From positions 558,001-622,000 of the forward strand of contig CM057150.1 of the NCBI GenBank assembly GCA_029964075.1: DNA of 64,000 bases, in the 5' to 3' direction. Source of the stretch: Patiria pectinifera (Eukaryota; Echinodermata; Asteroidea; Valvatida; Asterinidae). Numbering within the stretch: position 1 is the first letter of the stretch; each line of letters starts with the position of its first letter. The notes beneath the pieces were generated by a model. That model did no database searches. It saw only the letters and a program-made list of their open reading frames with translations, and was not told the DNA's origin. Positions 40,991 through 50,869 of this stretch are shown in pieces. The translations under genes and the position numbers were made by a program.

Positions 40991-41081
40991 AAGTAGGTGT
41001 CAGGAAGTGGATACGCGGAAACGGGGATACTGGGTGGACTTTATTTTTAGCGGAGGAAAGTATTTTTGAGAACGAAGCATC

Positions 41082-41384
41082 TGTTGTAGTATCGGGTTTA
41101 ATTATTCATGGGAACACCCCTTGTTTTATCCCTCGGTGTGACCCAACCCTTGGAGCATGCGCTGAGCGGTCCTCTTATGCCCATTGACCCCCCAAATCCC
41201 GCGCACAAGAACATCAAGGAGAACTGACAACAACCAAGGCATAAACACCCGACAACTTGTGCCGTTTTCGGGAACTATTCCGGAACCTAGTAGTGGTGGT
41301 TTACTGAGGCCCGTACGATCCCTTGATGACCGTCGGAGGTAGTCCAGTCGAAGATAGGGTGAGTCGACCCCGAAAAACACTACA
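41082..41384 (+). repeat. 5' LTR
   Basis: 303 bp, TGTTGTAGTATCGGG to AAACACTACA. The 3' LTR has the same ends; the 5' copy carries one extra 3-bp unit (TAGTAGTGG against TAGTGG). Confidence 0.92.
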
Positions 41385-41399
41385 TTGGCGTCGTAGACA
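41385..41399 (+). other. Candidate primer binding site
   Basis: TTGGCGTCGTAGACA follows the LTR; TGG at its start is compatible with pairing to a tRNA CCA end. The tRNA species was not identified, and an insertion at 41400 separates it from the leader. Confidence 0.4.
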
Positions 41400-41409
41400 C
41401 CCTTACAGA

Positions 41410-42720
41410 AATGTCCCATGAGCATCCCATGGGATTCCCATGGGGTCCCATGGGACCCCATGGGAAACCCATGGGGTCATCAAGAGCACCATGTAAGTTC
41501 AAATGATCACCATGGGAGATTTTATGCTCATCATGGGAAACCCATGGGAACACCATGGAGATTGCATGGACAACATGGGAACACCATGGGGATTTTACAA
41601 GCTCCATGCGAACACCATTGGAACACCATGGGGATTTTATGAGCTCCATGGAAACACCATGGGGATTTTACGGACACCATGCAGGTGCGGTTCTAGAACA
41701 AATATTTTGGGGGGGGGCTAGCACGGTGGATCCAGAATTTTTTCAGGGAGGCGTGCTGAAATCTAGACCGGTTATTTTTTCCTGACACTTAGGCCTCCGA
41801 AAATCAATAGGTGGGGGGGGGGGGGGCTAATGCCATATTTTCAATGGGGAGCGCCAATAAATATATATTAACTAATGCACCCTTGTCACGGCTATTTCTT
41901 CTTTAGGGGCAGACTGTTTGCATGTACATCACAATCCTTCTTTTTGCTGATGCAATTTTTTTTTAACGGAATTTATTTGGGGGGGGGGCTAGACAAAAAT
42001 TTTGGGGGGCGACAGCCCCCCCTAGCCCCCCACCGTAGAACCGCACCTGACACCATGGGAACACCGTGGGGATTTTATGGACATCATGGGAACACCATGT
42101 GGAATTAATGAACACCGTGGGACCACCATGGGAATTTATGGACACCATGGGAACACCATGGGAACCCCATGGCGATTTTATGGACATCATGGGAACAACA
42201 TGGGGATTTTATGGACACCATGGGAACACCATTGGGATTGTATGTCACCATGGGCACACCATGGGGATTTACTGGACATCATGGGAACATCATGGGGATT
42301 TCAGACACATGGATACACCATGAGGATTCGGACGCCATGGGAACACCATAATGTGGGTGATATAATTATGGACACAATGGGAACACCATGCAGATTTAAA
42401 AGGCAGCACGGGGACACAGCTGGGTTATACTGGAGAACATGCATGTGCCATGGAAAACCATCATAGACCCAATTGCACTCCCAAGTTATAGGCAAACCTT
42501 TCTTTGATTTAACTAGTTATTCGCCTAGCTGTAAATTTGAATTCAATTAAAAATATTTCCCTTGTGGTCCTAGAGGTTATCAAGAATTCTATTTGTTAAG
42601 CTGACCATGGGAAACTCCTGTGGATGTTCACCAATTGAACACAATGGGATAAACACCATGGAACACCATTGGAACACCATGGGACACCATGGGACCACCA
42701 TGGGACCACCATGGGACGTT
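41410..42720 (+). repeat. CCATGG tandem array
   Basis: Several dozen CCATGG or near copies, spaced mostly 12-27 bp apart, interrupted by the MITE at 41682. Because CCATGG is its own complement, frames on both strands appear open and rich in His, Gly, Met and Trp. Confidence 0.88.
41682..42049. mobile_element. hAT-type MITE nested in the CCATGG array
   Basis: Ends CAGGTGCGGTTCTAGAAC and GTAGAACCGCACCTG, flanked by the 8-bp duplication ACACCATG (41674-41681 and 42050-42057), which is itself part of the host array unit. It contains GC-homopolymer runs. Confidence 0.9.
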
Positions 42721-44374: not shown

Positions 44375-45316
44375 ATGGAGAAGATACCCATCAATTATTG
44401 TTCTTACCGGGACTTAGTTACTGTTCCTGGTGTTGGAGACGCTCTAGCAACTACGATTGTAGATTTGCGGAGTGCCCATGGTGACATGACACCAGAAATG
44501 CTCATGTCAGTTACAGGTGTGCGGAGCATGCCAGACATTGTGAGGATGTTTGACTTCAAGCCCTACATTCCTTTCTCGGAGGGAAGTCACCCAGTCAACA
44601 TGGCGTCCCCGAAGTCCAGGTTCAGACGGGTACCTCAGGCAACGGCTTCTGCTCCCAGTCAGATGTCATCCTTTCAAGATGCATGGAGCAGCCTTCAGGG
44701 TGGGACTCAGAAGTCTGATCCGTTGATGTCGAGGTTTCTGGAGTCGCCATATCCCTTCGACAGTTATCCTCCGCACCCACCAAGTCCACATGCCTACTCA
44801 GCACATCCACGGGAGGCACATCGCTTGCGTGAAGAGGTGCGACCAGCTCCCTTTGGTCAGGATGCCGCCGCGACTTGGTCGAGCAAACCTGCGTTTATTA
44901 GTGGAGGGATGGTGCCTCAACGCCCAAACATCCGACTCTACCGAAGACGATCACATACGACGGAAAGAGCAGCTGGCAGGCTTTCATCGCTAGGTTTTCA
45001 TCCTATGCCGATGAATGCAACTGGTCGGCGAAACAGCGGAAGAATAACCTTTGTTGGTGTTTGGAGGCCAAGGCAAGCGAGTTCTACGCCATGCTCAATG
45101 AGGGAGAGCCAAACCTGGAGTACTTTGATCTCATCAAGAAGATGGAGAAGAGGTTTGGTTTGCGAGATCTACCAGAGGCGACCCAGATGCAGTTCAATTA
45201 CGCCAAACAGTCATCTGAGGAGAACATCCTGGACTGGGCTGACCGAGTGCTCTACATGGCGACTCGCGCCTTTCCAAATCTTCCGGAGATGCATGTCCAG
45301 AAGCATGTTGTACTGA
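44375..45316 (+). pseudogene. Retrotransposon Gag, N-terminal part with HhH motif
   Basis: Starts at ATG 44375 (CAAGATGGAG). Residues 6-48 contain INYCSYRDLVTVPGVGDALA then TTIVDLRSAHGDM and LMSVTGV, a good match to a ComEA-type helix-hairpin-helix (PGVG, IV..R...G, L..V.G). A proline- and serine-rich linker follows. The useful Gag frame leaves this ORF near 44935 and continues in the 45061-45870 frame, so there is one indel; the remainder of this frame is not coding. Confidence 0.72.
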
Positions 45317-45870
45317 AGTTTTGCCAGGGCTGTTCCGATCGGGAGGCTGGCCAGTACGCCACCAACTCTAGGCCGGCTACCATAGAAACTGCCGTAGATT
45401 GTGTTAAGTGGTTTCAGCATACGCAGAGGGCGATTTATGGAAGGTACAGGAAGGATGTACATGTAAAGGAGATGTCGTTCAGTCACGATGATGTGGATGG
45501 TATGGGAGCGGACTTGTGTAAGGTGGGCATCACTGCTCAGACACCGCCGAGACGCCCAAATCCAGGGGACTTCTCATCTCTCGATAAACGAATGACAGCC
45601 CTAGAAGACCAGTTCAAGTCCATCCAGAGGTCTTTGGATAAGTTGACTGCTCTTACAACTCACCGCCCTCGTGAGCGATCAAGGTCACCAGCCCTTGACC
45701 TGTCCCGAAGTCCTTGTTTCCAGTGTGGAAAGTTGGGTCATTTCAAACGGGATTCCCCCGGTGTCGAGACAGAGAAGACAGTCTCCTTTATAGATGACCA
45801 GTCAAACTACAGCGGGTCAGAGAGTGAAGCCGATCTCCGCCCCGAGCAACTAACGGCCGACTACCAATAA
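44935..45870 (+). pseudogene. Retrotransposon Gag capsid and zinc knuckle
   Basis: In the second frame the capsid region has SSWQAFIARF, CLEAKASEFYAMLNEG, MEKRFGLRDL, DWADRVLYMA and FPNLP, typical of the retrotransposon Gag superfamily. Near the end, CFQCGKLGHFKRDSPG is a CCHC zinc knuckle whose last cysteine is changed. The frame stops at 45868-45870, overlapping the start of the pol frame by a -1 shift, a common arrangement. Confidence 0.82.
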
Positions 45871-45881
45871 TAGACACACCA

Positions 45882-47516
45882 ACCAATACAGTCGCTCTTG
45901 CTGATTCGGGTCCCTCTGTGCATTCATCACCTTCATCCAGTGCTGTGGTTGAAGCAGTTACTTCCTGTCAGTCCACGTTGGAAGAGAGTACGGTTCAGCT
46001 CGCTGAGATGGTCACTCAGGTGCAGCATTTTCAGGAGTACATTGACGGCATGGCTGAGGACTGTCCTGAGCAGTGCAGCGTTGGAGCTGATGAGTCCAAG
46101 GAGGAATCATCAAATTTGATTGAAGGAGGGGAGGAAGTGGTTGTCTGTCGACTGCATTCACGCTCGATGTTCAGCGTACGTGTTGGTCTAAACAGCATGG
46201 CACTTAAGGCGATCATCGACACAGCAGCAGAGGTCACAATCATCTCCGATTACATCTACAACTCCCTAGATCCCAAACCACCCGAAATCAGGAATGTGAC
46301 GTTGAACACTGCAGGAAGGAACATGAAGATGAAAGGTATAATTGCTGGTCCAGTAGAAGTAAAACTTGGAAGCAAGACCTTCACTGAGAGAGTATACGTG
46401 GCACCGATTGAAGACGATATGCTCTTGGGAATCGATTTTCTGCGACGACACAAGATAAGCATAGACATCCAAGATTCGATGCTGGTACTGGAGGATGAGA
46501 ACATACCCATGGTATTCGGGGAGGGGAACCAGCCTCCGAGAGTTGCTCCAGTAATGGTTCGTAAGCTGACGATTATCCCCCCAAATTGTGTCAAGAAGGT
46601 TCCATGTAAGGTGACCAAACCACTGGAACAGTTCATGGTTGAACCTTCCCAGGGTTTGAGTGTTCTGTTGCCCCGGACTGTCCACAGTCCCGGACAGGAA
46701 GTGGAATTATTTGTGATCAACCCCACAGCTCAGAATGTGCGACTAAAGGGAAATCGCCAGGTTGGGAATGCCAAAGAGGTGGCTGCGGTCATGGACATTC
46801 CAGTTGAAGACATAGACAAAAGTCTGTATATCAACGAGGTGATTGTTGCTACTGATGCTGAGGTGCCTGAACACTTGCAAGATCTTCTGAAGAGGTCTGC
46901 AGAACACTTGAACCAAGATGAGCAAGGTCAACTTCGAAATCTGTTGATCGAGTTCCAAGATGTGTTTGCCAGGGATGAATATGATCTTGGGAACTTTACC
47001 TCCATTGAACACCAGATCATCACCGAAGGGGCCAAACCGGTGAAGCATAAAATGAGACGCACTCCCATGACTTTTGCGGACGAGGAGAAAGCACATCTAG
47101 ACAAGATGGAAGCTGCTGGGGTAATCCAGCCCTCAACGTCCGAATGGGCATCGGCTCCTGTCCTCGTGAGGAAGCGAGATGGCAGCGTCCGTTGGTGTGT
47201 AGACTATAGGGGTTTGAACACGGTAACTCGGAAGGACGTCTATCCCTTGCCCAACATCGAGGAATGTCTTGACACTCTCGCCGGAAACATATGGTTTTCA
47301 AAATTGGATGCTAATGCTGCCTACTGGCAGGTGAAGATCGATGAAGGTGATAGGAAGAAAACGGCTTTTATCACGAAGTACGGCTTGTACGAGTTCGTCA
47401 GAATGGGATTTGGTTTATGTAATGCTCCGGCAATGTTCTGCCGAGTGATGAACCTGGTCCTTAGAGGTCTTAATTGGGACATTGCTCTTGGTTTAAGGAT
47501 TTCCAACTTAAGTTGA
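45882..47516 (+). pseudogene. Pol: protease and truncated reverse transcriptase
   Basis: The protease is marked by ALKAIIDTAAEVTIIS (D-T-A in place of the more usual D-S/T-G-A) and MLLGIDFLRRH. RT follows with VIQPSTSEWASAPVLVRKRD, VRWCVDYRGLN, DVYPLPNIEE, FSKLDANAAYWQ and YEFVRMGFGLCNAPAMF. The reading is then broken at about 47490: the segment that should contain the Y-x-D-D catalytic motif is deleted, and the frame ends after a few unrelated residues. Confidence 0.9.
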
Positions 47517-48760
47517 AGCCAAAGAAGTGTGCCTTGTTTCAACGTAAAGTGGAATTCCTGGGCAGAGGCATCGACCGAAACGGTATGCAACTGAAGGAGG
47601 AACATGTAAAAGCAGTGGAAGACTGGCCGCGGCCAAGAAACACCCAGCAGGTGGAACAGTCTTTGGGACTGGTGAATTATCATAGAGTGTTCCTCAAGGG
47701 CTATGCCTCAGTGGCAGGGCCCCTCTTCAACATCACCGGTAAAAACAAGTTCACTTGGGGTACCGAACAGCAACAGGCATTGGAGGAGATCAAGGAGCTC
47801 TTGACACATGCCCCTGCTCTTACACTACCGAATGCAGACGATCCTTTCATTGTGGACACAGATGCGTCCAACACTGCCATAGGCGCTGAGCTCATTCACG
47901 TTCAAGGTGGCCAGGAGAAGGTGGTGGCATATGGCAGTATTTCATTGTCCCCTGAACAGCGCCGGTATTGCGTCACCAGACGTGAGCTACTGGCAGTCAT
48001 CAAATTCACACGGCAGTACCGTCATTACCTACTAGGCAAGCCATTTGTAGTTCGAACTGACCACAGTAGTCTTACTTGGCTGCTAAACTTCAAAGCGTCC
48101 CAAGGTCAGATAGCGCGGTGGCTAGAGGAGCTTAGTGAGTACAACATGACAGTGGAGCACCGGGCAGGAAAGAAACACCTGAATGCGGACGCCCTTTCCC
48201 GCATTCCAGAAACTGAAAGCCCCTGCCAAGGTTTTAAACTTGGGATGCAGCCAGAGGATCTCCCATGTCAAGGCTGTAACTACTGTAGGAAGGCTCACCA
48301 GAACTGGGCTCACTTTGTGGCCAAGGTTGACGATGTTGTACCCCTTGCCGTTAGACCCAAACAGGTCAGGGTAGCCAAGCTGGACCAAATTGCATCAGAT
48401 GCCTACACCATCACTAGCATGGAGGTGGTAGCTACCGATGATGGTCTCCTGATGTCAGTAGATAGAACTGACTATTCCATTACATCAGTTGCTGAAGGTT
48501 CTGACGAACCATGTTCAGGCAAACTCCTGCAAGAGGAGCAGGAGAAAGACGACCAGCTGGTTCATTTGCGTCAATGGCTACTAATTAAAGAGGAGCCTGG
48601 CGAAGGCACAGTCATGTTGTGGGGTCCAGCAGGGAAATACCTCTGGATCAACTGGAACTTGTTCCATATCGAAGAAGGGATTCTGTGGAAAAAGGTCGAG
48701 GACAAGGTTTTTTGTGGTGCCAAGGGCACTGCAGAATCATGTCGTGCAGTTAAACCATGA
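47500..48760 (+). pseudogene. Pol: RT thumb and RNase H
   Basis: The frame resumes with FQLKLKPKKCALFQRKVEFL (RT connection), then FIVDTDASNTAIGAELIHVQ, YCVTRRELLAVIKF, FVVRTDHSSLTWLL and HLNADALSR, a complete RNase H with its acidic residues. A linker with a short cysteine-rich piece (CQGCNYC) leads to ILWKKVED and the beginning of the integrase, where the frame breaks at about 48725. Confidence 0.9.
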
Positions 48761-48959
48761 CATACCCTCAGCAGGTCATGCCGGAGTAGACGGAACTCTT
48801 GCCAAAATAAAGACGAAGTACTTCTGGTATGGGATGACCCGGGACATCAAGAATTACGTCATTTCGTGCTCCGTCTGCAATCGGAGCAAGAAAGCTGCTA
48901 AACAGGGCAGGTGCCCCATGACAAATTACCATGCTGGGTTATGGAGAAGGTACATCTAG
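48714..48959 (+). pseudogene. Integrase zinc-binding HHCC region
   Basis: LNHDIPSAGHAGVDGT, KTKYFWYGM, and ISCSVCNRSKKA give the H-H-C-C pattern. The frame is lost just before the first catalytic aspartate, around 48945. Confidence 0.82.
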
Positions 48960-49725
48960 ATTTCATTGGCCCGTTGCCCAAGACGACTGGTGGCAACGAA
49001 AATATTCTCCACTGATGGTGGACCAATTTACCAAATGGTTGGAATGTGTACCATTGCCTTCTCACACTGCAGAGGTCACAGCTCAAGCTGCTGTAGGGGA
49101 ATTCTTCTGCCGCTTTGGTTACCCACTGCAAATTGTGACTGATCAAGGCAGGAACTTTGAAAGTCAGCTGTTCTCAAATGTTTGCAAAGTCCTGCAAATT
49201 CACAAATCTTAGACAACCCCCTATCGACCGTCCGCCAATGGTCGGGTAGAAAAATTTAATCGGACGTTGATGGACGCAGTTAGATGCTACGTAGGGAAAT
49301 CACAGAACCAGTGGGATAAGTTCTTGCCACAGATTGCAGGAGCTCTGAGGTCAACAGTGAACCGGAGCACCGGCTTCACTCCCAACATGCTAATGCTAGG
49401 TCGGGAAATCAACCAACCTGCAGATCTCATGTTCCCCTTACCCCCTATGGCCAAACAGCCAAGCTTACCTGATGAATATTGTGCTGACATGGCCAAAGCC
49501 ATTGGGAAAGCCCATGAAGCAATAACTACCTTACGTTCTACCCAGAAGCGTATGAAGCGAGACTACGACCTTAAAGTCAGGAAGAGAGAATTCCAGGAAG
49601 GTGACATGGTGTATCTCTTGGATACCGCCACGATTAAAGGCAAGTGCAAGAAATTGAGCCCCCGTGAAAGATCCCGCCGTGGTCACAAAGAAGTTGTCCC
49701 CCTACCTGTTCCGCATCGAGTATAG
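48955..49725 (+). pseudogene. Integrase catalytic core, with nonsense codon
   Basis: The first catalytic aspartate lies in a different frame near 48960 (..LDFIGPLPK-like). MVDQFTKWLE, IVTDQGRNFES (second aspartate) and, after an in-frame TAG at 49210-49212, RPSANGRVEKFNRT (third acidic residue) follow. NRSTGFTPNMLMLGRE and MKRDYDLKVRKREFQEGD complete the core. A frameshift near 49670 disrupts the following GPY/F-type module. Confidence 0.88.
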
Positions 49726-49975
49726 GAACACGGTCTTTACCATGAACCATGACCGGCTAAAGAAGTGTAACGACCGAGAGGTTCCCGAACAGTGTACGAA
49801 AACCAAGAGCAGTAAACAGAAGGCTTACTGTCTATGTAGGAAGCCAGATGATGGCGACTTCATGATTCAGTGCGACACTTGCGACGAGTGGTACCACGGC
49901 AGATGCGTGAATGTACCACCTGAAGAGGGAATGGCCATGGACAAATACACTTGTCCATTGTGCCAACAACAGTAA
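49664..49975 (+). CDS. Integrase C-terminus with PHD finger
   Basis: Residues 4-32 (PAVVTKKLSPYLFRIEYRN) resemble the GPY/F module. Residues 56-100 form a complete C4HC3 PHD finger: C56, C58, C70, C73, H78, C81, C97, C100, with KPDDGDFMIQCD and DEWYHGRC between. The F-M-I and E-W-Y-H residues are positioned like the aromatic cage of H3K4me3-binding PHD fingers of the TAF3, CXXC1 and PHF8 type. A natural stop lies at 49973. A chromodomain often occupies this place in other gypsy elements. Confidence 0.85.
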   Translation: MKDPAVVTKKLSPYLFRIEYRNTVFTMNHDRLKKCNDREVPEQCTKTKSSKQKAYCLCRKPDDGDFMIQCDTCDEWYHGRCVNVPPEEGMAMDKYTCPLCQQQ

Positions 49976-50099: not shown

Positions 50100-50122
50100 T
50101 AAAACGGGGGGGGGGGGGGGGG
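50100..50122 (+). other. Polypurine tract
   Basis: AAAACGGGGG followed by a G run directly abuts the 3' LTR, as expected for plus-strand priming. Confidence 0.75.
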
Positions 50123-50422
50123 TGTTGTAGTATCGGGTTTAATTATTCATGGGAACACCCCTTATTTAGTCCCTTAGTGTGATCCAATCCTTGGAGCATG
50201 CGCTGAGCGGTCCTCTTATGCCCTTTGACCCCCCAAATCCCGTGCACAAGAACATCATGAAGAACTGACAACAACCGAGGCATAAACACCCGACATTTTG
50301 TGCCGTTTTTGGGAACTATTCCGGAACCTAGTGGTGGTTTACTGAGGCCCGTACGATCCCTTGACGACCGTCGGAGGTAGTCCAGTCGAAGAAAGGGTTA
50401 GTCGACCCCGGAAAACACTACA
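50123..50422 (+). repeat. 3' LTR
   Basis: 300 bp, TGTTGTAGTATCGGG to AAACACTACA, followed by CATC target duplication at 50423. It pairs with 41082-41384. Confidence 0.92.
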
Positions 50423-50869
50423 CATCCATATTCATGTTAGAAAATAACGAAGGCAAAGACAACGTGAGTTGAATGGGGAGCAGGGGAAAAACGTTTAAGT
50501 CCAAAGTAGGTGCCGGGAAGTGGATGCGTTGTCGTGGAAAGCATTCTCGTTGTCTTCCTTTCCGCGACAACGTACCAGACGAAAATTGTACTCACTTGCG
50601 GCGCCTGCAAGCGGTGTGGTACCCACATACATCGCGCGTGCAGATTTTTTTTCGATGTCATCACATGATGCATATATTTACATAATTAACAAAACAAAAT
50701 GGACGACAGCCGTTGAAACTGGCGTTTTTTTACGGACAAGCCACCGAAATCGTCAAGATTTTTCACATTTTTGTGTGTGGTCTGTTTCAAGTCGAACATT
50801 TAGGCTTGTTTCCACCAGAATTACGTCAGTGAATGTATGAGGTATGTAAATGAACTCTGGGGTGGAATA

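Follow-up and report, generated by a model that had tools for sequence, protein, structure and literature searches.

The window analysed here, a stretch of 64,000 nucleotides of the sea star Patiria pectinifera (contig CM057150.1, positions 558,001 to 622,000), contains a Ty3/gypsy long terminal repeat (LTR) retrotransposon whose integrase ends in a PHD finger. Searches of the genome show this fusion to be shared by several copies; two families carry it in a single open frame. On balance, we favour the reading that this is a Ty3/gypsy family whose integrase would use its own PHD finger to dock on histone H3 methylated at lysine 4 (H3K4), favouring insertion near the transcription start sites (TSSs) of active genes.

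The fusion of integrase and PHD finger

The last open frame of the element in the window comprises the final part of a GPY/F module, a linker of 19 residues, the PHD finger and a stop codon, and it matches the Pfam PHD model with 46.8 bits (cut-off 24). In the 105 residues of this frame (49658-49972) the C4HC3 ligands are C58, C60, C72, C75, H80, C83, C99 and C102, and the first bases of their codons lie from 49829 to 49961. The assignment to the PHD class is based on these ligands, on the conserved Trp two residues ahead of the His and on a score above the cut-off; the strict Cys/His spacing occurs only once across the six frames of the window. A sequence-only reading of this DNA had described the finger in a frame at 49664-49975 with ligands C56 to C100. 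That frame exists, its ligands are C58 to C102 in our numbering, the F-M-I and E-W-Y-H residues that it pointed out are present, and the Pfam search that it proposed gave the match mentioned above. It had also placed the complete C4HC3 set directly after the GPY/F segment of the integrase and before a stop, an arrangement that is seen in this frame and in uninterrupted copies. We can state that the PHD directly follows the integrase because the uninterrupted copies show that this frame opens with the final part of the GPY/F module. In the uninterrupted frames of other copies this module is visible behind the integrase core, and its Pfam matches are weak and below the cut-off (Integrase_p58_C, E 2.1e-4, in sister family 2; SH3_Tf2-1, E 0.0066, in the copy on contig C11). 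In the C-terminal frame of the window, Pfam gave no chromodomain match with E values up to 1, nor did it in the C11 piece with E values up to 0.01. The PHD fused to the integrase presumably binds zinc.

The search for further copies was made in the 613.5 Mb assembly that contains the window, with the best 150 of 197 candidates scored for the PHD frame. The family was found at four places: the window itself and three further loci with 96% identity. Each of the three further copies detected in which this end of the element is present has a single open frame for integrase and PHD (1420, 1420 and 219 amino acids). The sequence-only reading had left room for a PHD carried in frame by no other copy, or for a PHD that is a host exon joined to the element here alone, and both are excluded by these copies. 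The LTRs, the 4-bp target duplication and the single open frame in 3/3 copies therefore indicate that the PHD is not a host exon. The two LTRs of the fused copies differ at 1/301 sites (C11), 0/301 sites (C19, 6.9 Mb) and 6/299 sites (third copy), and thus the fused form has transposed recently. In addition, an LTR search gave 23 matches from 22 candidates, which were grouped as 14 sites. A 4-bp duplication was found on both sides at nine of them; at the C14 site at 6.05 Mb the duplication has no exact match, and the other four have one side or truncated LTRs.

In two C14 copies the integrase and most of the PHD are deleted with a shared breakpoint, and we regard them as deletion derivatives in which the end of the PHD is still there. 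Both are bounded by LTRs (G000, C14:40239818-40247778 and C14:6053030-6056980), and their common internal deletion ends at the place that corresponds to window position 49927; they may represent a non-autonomous derivative that was mobilised. Among viral contigs, no relative was found. A look for COX1 in the assembly gave no match.

Sister family 2, a single copy on C7 at 8.613 Mb, is 73% identical to the window family (family 1) and carries the integrase C-terminus and the PHD in one frame of 191 residues, the integrase being broken farther upstream. In family 3 (C7, 16.079 Mb) the integrase and the PHD are 55% and 53% identical to those of the window family, and the PHD lies 0.34 kb past the GPY/F module in a different frame, preceded by stop codons and by a segment of about 0.32 kb that has inverted ends. 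This segment (L007, about 1718-2037) resembles a miniature inverted-repeat transposable element.

Between families 1 and 2, 42 of 47 PHD residues are identical, with a proportion of nonsynonymous differences (pN) of 0.053 and a proportion of synonymous differences (pS) beyond correction, compared with 5/19 identical residues in the linker and 30/36 in the GPY/F part. Family 3 keeps 25/49 of the PHD residues, and the PHDs of the window and of the C11 copy are identical at 49/49 residues (pS 0.158, pN 0). These counts are based on few sites, and the contrast in conservation between PHD and linker is strong. Judged by this pattern of substitution, the PHD is under purifying selection, since it was kept between families 1 and 2 while the linker diverged and the synonymous sites became saturated.

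Relatives of the PHD finger and its aromatic cage

When the PHD was compared with the sequences of solved structures (71 distinct sequences with E of 0.01 or lower), the best matches were BPTF (1.6e-14), PHF8, PHF2, CFP1 (1.8e-12) and SPP1 (3.5e-12), and also DIDO1; PHF20 was a lesser match. The PHD fingers of BPTF, PHF2, PHF8, CFP1, DIDO1 and SPP1 bind H3 trimethylated at lysine 4 (H3K4me3). The closest solved sequences, at 1.6e-14 to 3.5e-12, thus come from the COMPASS proteins CFP1 and SPP1, from BPTF and from PHF2/PHF8, all of them host chromatin proteins, whereas the window PHD is borne by an element. CFP1 and SPP1 align with it at equal length, CFP1 with 21/49 identical residues and no gap. 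BPTF and PHF2/PHF8 differ from it in a loop that has one extra residue and a Tyr, which the loop of the window PHD lacks.

The cage was judged from alignments; the structure models built from the single sequence were too poor to show it. In the alignment with PHF8 and PHF2, residues Tyr57, Met69 and Trp78 of the window frame fall at what we take to be the cage positions of these proteins, and the second Tyr of BPTF and PHF8 is missing. Met69 and Trp78 are retained in all three families. The first cage residue varies, Tyr57 being replaced by Phe in family 2 and by Arg in family 3, and family 3 has a Trp at the position of the second Tyr. The likeness to H3K4me3-binding fingers proposed from the sequence alone is thus borne out by the best solved matches and holds less well for the cage, which appears to be only partly of the BPTF/PHF8 type. 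H3K4 methylation would be the histone mark that this PHD prefers.

A PHD is also present in a second, distant gypsy lineage, at another place in the polyprotein. In both pieces scanned (L082, region of G000:C2:745768-746067, and L085, region of G000:C20:22757842-22758114, with frames of 1443 and 1569 residues) the Pfam order is RNase H, PHD and integrase H2C2 domain. A query from this lineage matched 35 places, the PHDs of the window family included. In a tree of 16 integrase pieces, of which seven fill less than half of the columns, the four rows with C-terminal PHD group at 99/99 and the two rows with the PHD in the middle at 100/100, far apart from them; five rows without PHD (100/100) are the nearest relatives of the C-terminal-PHD rows, joined at 87/86. 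The grouping was matched in 74/500 (type A) and 59/500 (type B) label shuffles. For the five rows without PHD, there was no PF00628 among the matches listed (150 of 645 candidates scored), and none was found by a Cys/His pattern that is blind to the spacing of the middle-PHD lineage. The existence of the second lineage suggests repeated capture. Two separate captures would be the simplest reading, and one origin with losses is compatible with the tree as well.

Other repeats in the genome also carry PHD fingers. L008 and L075 (G000, C22:19132260 and C5:7412672) and similar loci have repetitive frames of 1831-2329 residues with a BPTF-like PHD. L069 and L070 have frames like those of long interspersed nuclear elements (LINEs), in which, as judged by eye, an N-terminal PHD is followed by an apparent APE endonuclease, as in CR1 and L2.

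Insertion sites and anatomy of the window copy

To look at the surroundings of the 14 LTR sites, host exons were read by eye in the open frames of 1.5-kb flanks on the known sides. Frames of at least 75 residues were read on 25 flanks, those of 38-74 residues on 16 of these, and the left flank of the C11 copy was read entirely; reading went farther out at C21, C2, C730 and C19 6.9 Mb. The LTR edge of the C11 copy precedes the ATG of an EAF-like gene by about 0.26 kb; the Pfam match of this gene to EAF (E 0.013) is under the cut-off, and its exons 1 and 2 also resemble EAF. The C19 copy at 33.4 Mb falls within the first intron of DHX37, 0.62 kb downstream of the ATG (PDB 7mqa, E 1.1e-4, match from residue 1). 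The C14 copy at 6.05 Mb lies upstream of SmD2 (PDB 1b34, E 1.2e-30), 0.63 kb from the first coding exon that was recognised; the ATG exon was not located. Two solo LTRs are farther away. The one on C21 (39.59 Mb) precedes the ATG of a phosducin-like gene (PDB, E 5.3e-5) by 2.5 kb and is separated from an H2A gene by 3 kb. For the one on C730, the distance to a gene of the Pex2/Pex12 family (E 3e-14) is 1.9 kb. An exon 2.1 kb from the latter LTR, which has no database match, we take to be OPA1; it runs apart from the Pex2/Pex12-family gene. At the C4 site an EGF exon is 0.18 kb away. The remaining eight of the 14 sites have no recognised gene start in the stretches read by eye.

In summary of these positions, which have no matched control, three of the 14 sites are within 0.7 kb of the earliest coding exon recognised in a gene (EAF, DHX37, SmD2) and five within 2.6 kb. 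The corresponding P values are 0.042 and 0.16 if 25,000 genes are assumed, and 0.13 and 0.54 if 40,000 are assumed. All three near-gene copies are among the four LTR pairs with a Kimura two-parameter distance (K2P) up to 0.021 (3/4, P 0.0007 with 25,000 genes; the subset was picked post hoc). A gypsy family without PHD, found with an LTR probe (40 matches scored of 127 candidates), was used as control for one property, the distance to other mapped gypsy integrases (150 of 1266 candidates mapped). For this comparison 13 sites of the PHD family and 31 control sites were used, with C730 and the small contigs left out and the duplicated C4 and C21 34.7 Mb sites taken as midpoints. Another mapped gypsy integrase was present within 1 Mb at 16/31 control sites and at 5/13 sites of the PHD family, which is farther from mapped gypsy copies than the control (Mann-Whitney P 0.053). 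Taken together, the sites are suggestive of a preference of the PHD family for the starts of active genes.

Two other properties of the sites were considered. Targeting to tRNA genes, as in Ty3, found no support: ARAGORN found no tRNA in 22 LTR loci, and Rfam found one tRNA in one of 20 (L026). The observed/expected CpG ratio of 25 insertion flanks was compared with that of 35 window tiles (median 0.61), which are not a proper control, and was set aside. It was also observed that some insertions are close to contig ends (C22 0.6 Mb, C11 15.0 of 15.4 Mb, C19 33.4 of 34.6 Mb, C21 39.59 of 40.05 Mb).

The features of the window copy are collected in Table 1. Its LTRs begin with TG and end with CA, a 4-bp target duplication is present, and the Pfam domains follow the Ty3/gypsy order of protease, reverse transcriptase, RNase H, H2C2 domain and integrase core. 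The LTR pair has a K2P of 0.067, with differences at 19/300 aligned sites (13 transitions and 6 transversions). As the sequence-only reading had said of the rest of this copy, it is broken: pol is spread over several frames, and the integrase changes frame within the GPY/F module. At other loci the putative primer-binding site reads TTGGCGTCGTAG after six LTRs and TCGGCGTTGTAG after one. The gag of the family opens with a helix-hairpin-helix (HHH_3), and the C11 copy has the same start (L086, 1181-2575). The 5' part of the window copy contains an array of repeats spaced by 31 bp (41422-42428), and the spacing from LTR to LTR is 9.0 kb in the window copy versus 7.4 kb in the C11 copy.

Table 1. 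Features of the element in the window, with the basis of each assignment.
Feature	Position	Strand	Basis
Target-site duplication CATC, left copy	41078..41081	.	located in sequence
5' LTR, TG...CA	41082..41384	+	93% identity to 3' LTR
Start of putative primer-binding site	41385..41396	+	same or nearly same letters 3' of 5' LTRs elsewhere; role inferred
gag frame, part 1, helix-hairpin-helix	44354..45316	+	HHH_3 E 1.2e-6
gag frame, part 2	44902..45870	+	PNMA-like E 4e-4, CCHC knuckle E 6.7e-4, both slightly under Pfam cut-offs
pol frame, aspartyl protease and reverse transcriptase part 1	45828..47516	+	gag-asp_proteas E 5.8e-8, RVT_1 E 8.8e-16
pol frame, reverse transcriptase end and RNase H	47474..48760	+	RT_RNaseH E 6.2e-32
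pol frame, integrase zinc-binding domain	48585..48959	+	Integrase_H2C2 E 1.6e-19
pol frame, integrase catalytic core part 1	48922..49212	+	rve E 3.5e-12
pol frame, remaining integrase core and GPY/F module part 1	49213..49725	+	97% identity to 1420-aa frames (C11, C19), 150 residues compared
Open frame with GPY/F module end, linker, PHD finger and stop	49658..49975	+	frame, Pfam and other copies
PHD finger (C4HC3)	49829..49963	+	PF00628 E 2.9e-12, residues 58-102
G-run 5' of 3' LTR, likely polypurine tract	50106..50122	+	AACGGGGGGGAG at same place in other copies
3' LTR, 300 bp	50123..50422	+	LTR search and pair alignment
Target-site duplication CATC, right copy	50423..50426	.	located in sequence

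Known elements, proposed mechanism and alternatives

Chromoviruses are Ty3/gypsy elements with a chromodomain behind the GPY/F module. As in these elements and in Ty3, the window family carries, within one polyprotein, a chromatin-reader fold immediately after the C-terminal domain of the integrase, but a PHD zinc finger stands where chromoviruses have the chromodomain, and the predicted mark would be that of active promoters instead of heterochromatin. A retrotransposon has reportedly captured a methyl-CpG-binding domain, to judge from the title of a reference. Ginger1-9_HM of Hydra is similar in that a gypsy-integrase-like enzyme is followed by a C-terminal Ulp1 domain and a PHD; it is a cut-and-paste element with terminal inverted repeats, for which neither LTRs nor reverse transcriptase are described (PMC2836005), whereas the window family has both, and a PHD without Ulp1. 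The CR1 and L2 LINEs also bear a PHD, with targeting suggested and not assayed there, but either in ORF1 or at the beginning of ORF2, in elements with an APE endonuclease and no integrase (PMC4120745); in the window family the PHD is on the integrase. No PHD is mentioned in PMC3601003, and no LTR retrotransposon with an integrase-borne PHD was found in one library of open-access papers (Repbase, subscription journals and preprints being outside the search).

The mechanism that we favour for this family would begin with an integrase cleaved from Pol with the PHD still attached. In the nucleus, the PHD would dock the complex of integrase and cDNA onto H3 tails with K4 methylation, insertion would be favoured in nucleosomes near the TSSs of active genes, and a new copy near such sites would likely be expressed. 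We infer the docking of the intasome and the promoter targeting by the PHD from the findings above, and there are related observations in other systems. When the PHD of ING2 was fused to the integrase-binding part of LEDGF, HIV-1 integration shifted towards TSSs and expressed genes (PMC8149907); that construct likewise links a PHD to the integrase complex, but it is engineered and acts in trans, whereas the fusion described here is natural and within the integrase chain. The vestigial chromodomain behind the integrase C-terminal domain of Ty3 contacts a target factor (PMC8632968). To a wider version of the proposal we give slightly less than an even chance: Ty3/gypsy elements of this animal lineage would have captured PHDs at least twice, behind the integrase and ahead of it, and the PHD at the C-terminus would read H3K4 methylation and steer the cDNA to promoters of active housekeeping genes.

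Several points weigh against promoter targeting through H3K4 methylation. The cage of the window PHD lacks the second Tyr, the statistics of the insertion sites are weak, and four LTR elements of Drosophila, for which no PHD is mentioned, likewise have most of their insertions in open chromatin, and those of one, gtwin, are enriched in an H3K4me3 cluster (PMC12159745). The state of the cage would fit a PHD that reads H3 otherwise (unmodified H3K4, K4me1/2 or a different tail), or that is a general nucleosome anchor with no promoter preference. The first cage residue is changed in families 2 and 3, the ligands of PHD fingers as a class are varied, and PHF20 is in the list of solved matches, if as a lesser one. 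However, the top-scoring solved matches all belong to the group known as H3K4 methyl readers, and Met69 and Trp78 are kept across the three families; we consider this alternative unlikely, though it carries the most weight among the competing explanations.

Nearly the same weight goes to the possibility that the PHD acts elsewhere, in contacts with particle proteins, integrase stability or nuclear import, and that insertions at gene starts reflect the common taste of LTR elements for open chromatin. The Drosophila elements and the weak site statistics fit such an explanation, but the PHD occupies the position of the integrase chromodomains, for which a targeting role is reported, and the control family without PHD is nearer to mapped gypsy integrases than the PHD family. 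Finally, the broken pol of the window copy, and the two C14 copies in which the integrase and the greater part of the PHD are missing, could be taken as signs of a chance read-through into a host PHD exon or of a degenerate remnant with no function. This we judge very improbable, given the near-identical fusion in three other copies and in the sister family, the LTRs with their 4-bp duplications at 9/14 sites, and the strong constraint on the PHD; a read-through specific to this locus is refuted by the one-frame fusion in the other copies.

A reader domain fused to the integrase is the simplest known route by which a retroelement chooses its sites, and the known examples lead to heterochromatin or to RNA polymerase III genes. 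If our reading is true, a natural and selected integrase-PHD fusion would mean that promoter targeting has evolved in cis. This family would then make the opposite target choice to chromoviruses and would be the counterpart in nature of the engineered PHD retargeting of HIV-1. It would offer a clear test of whether a single histone mark is enough to direct integration, and vectors with retargeted integration could be compared with a natural case.
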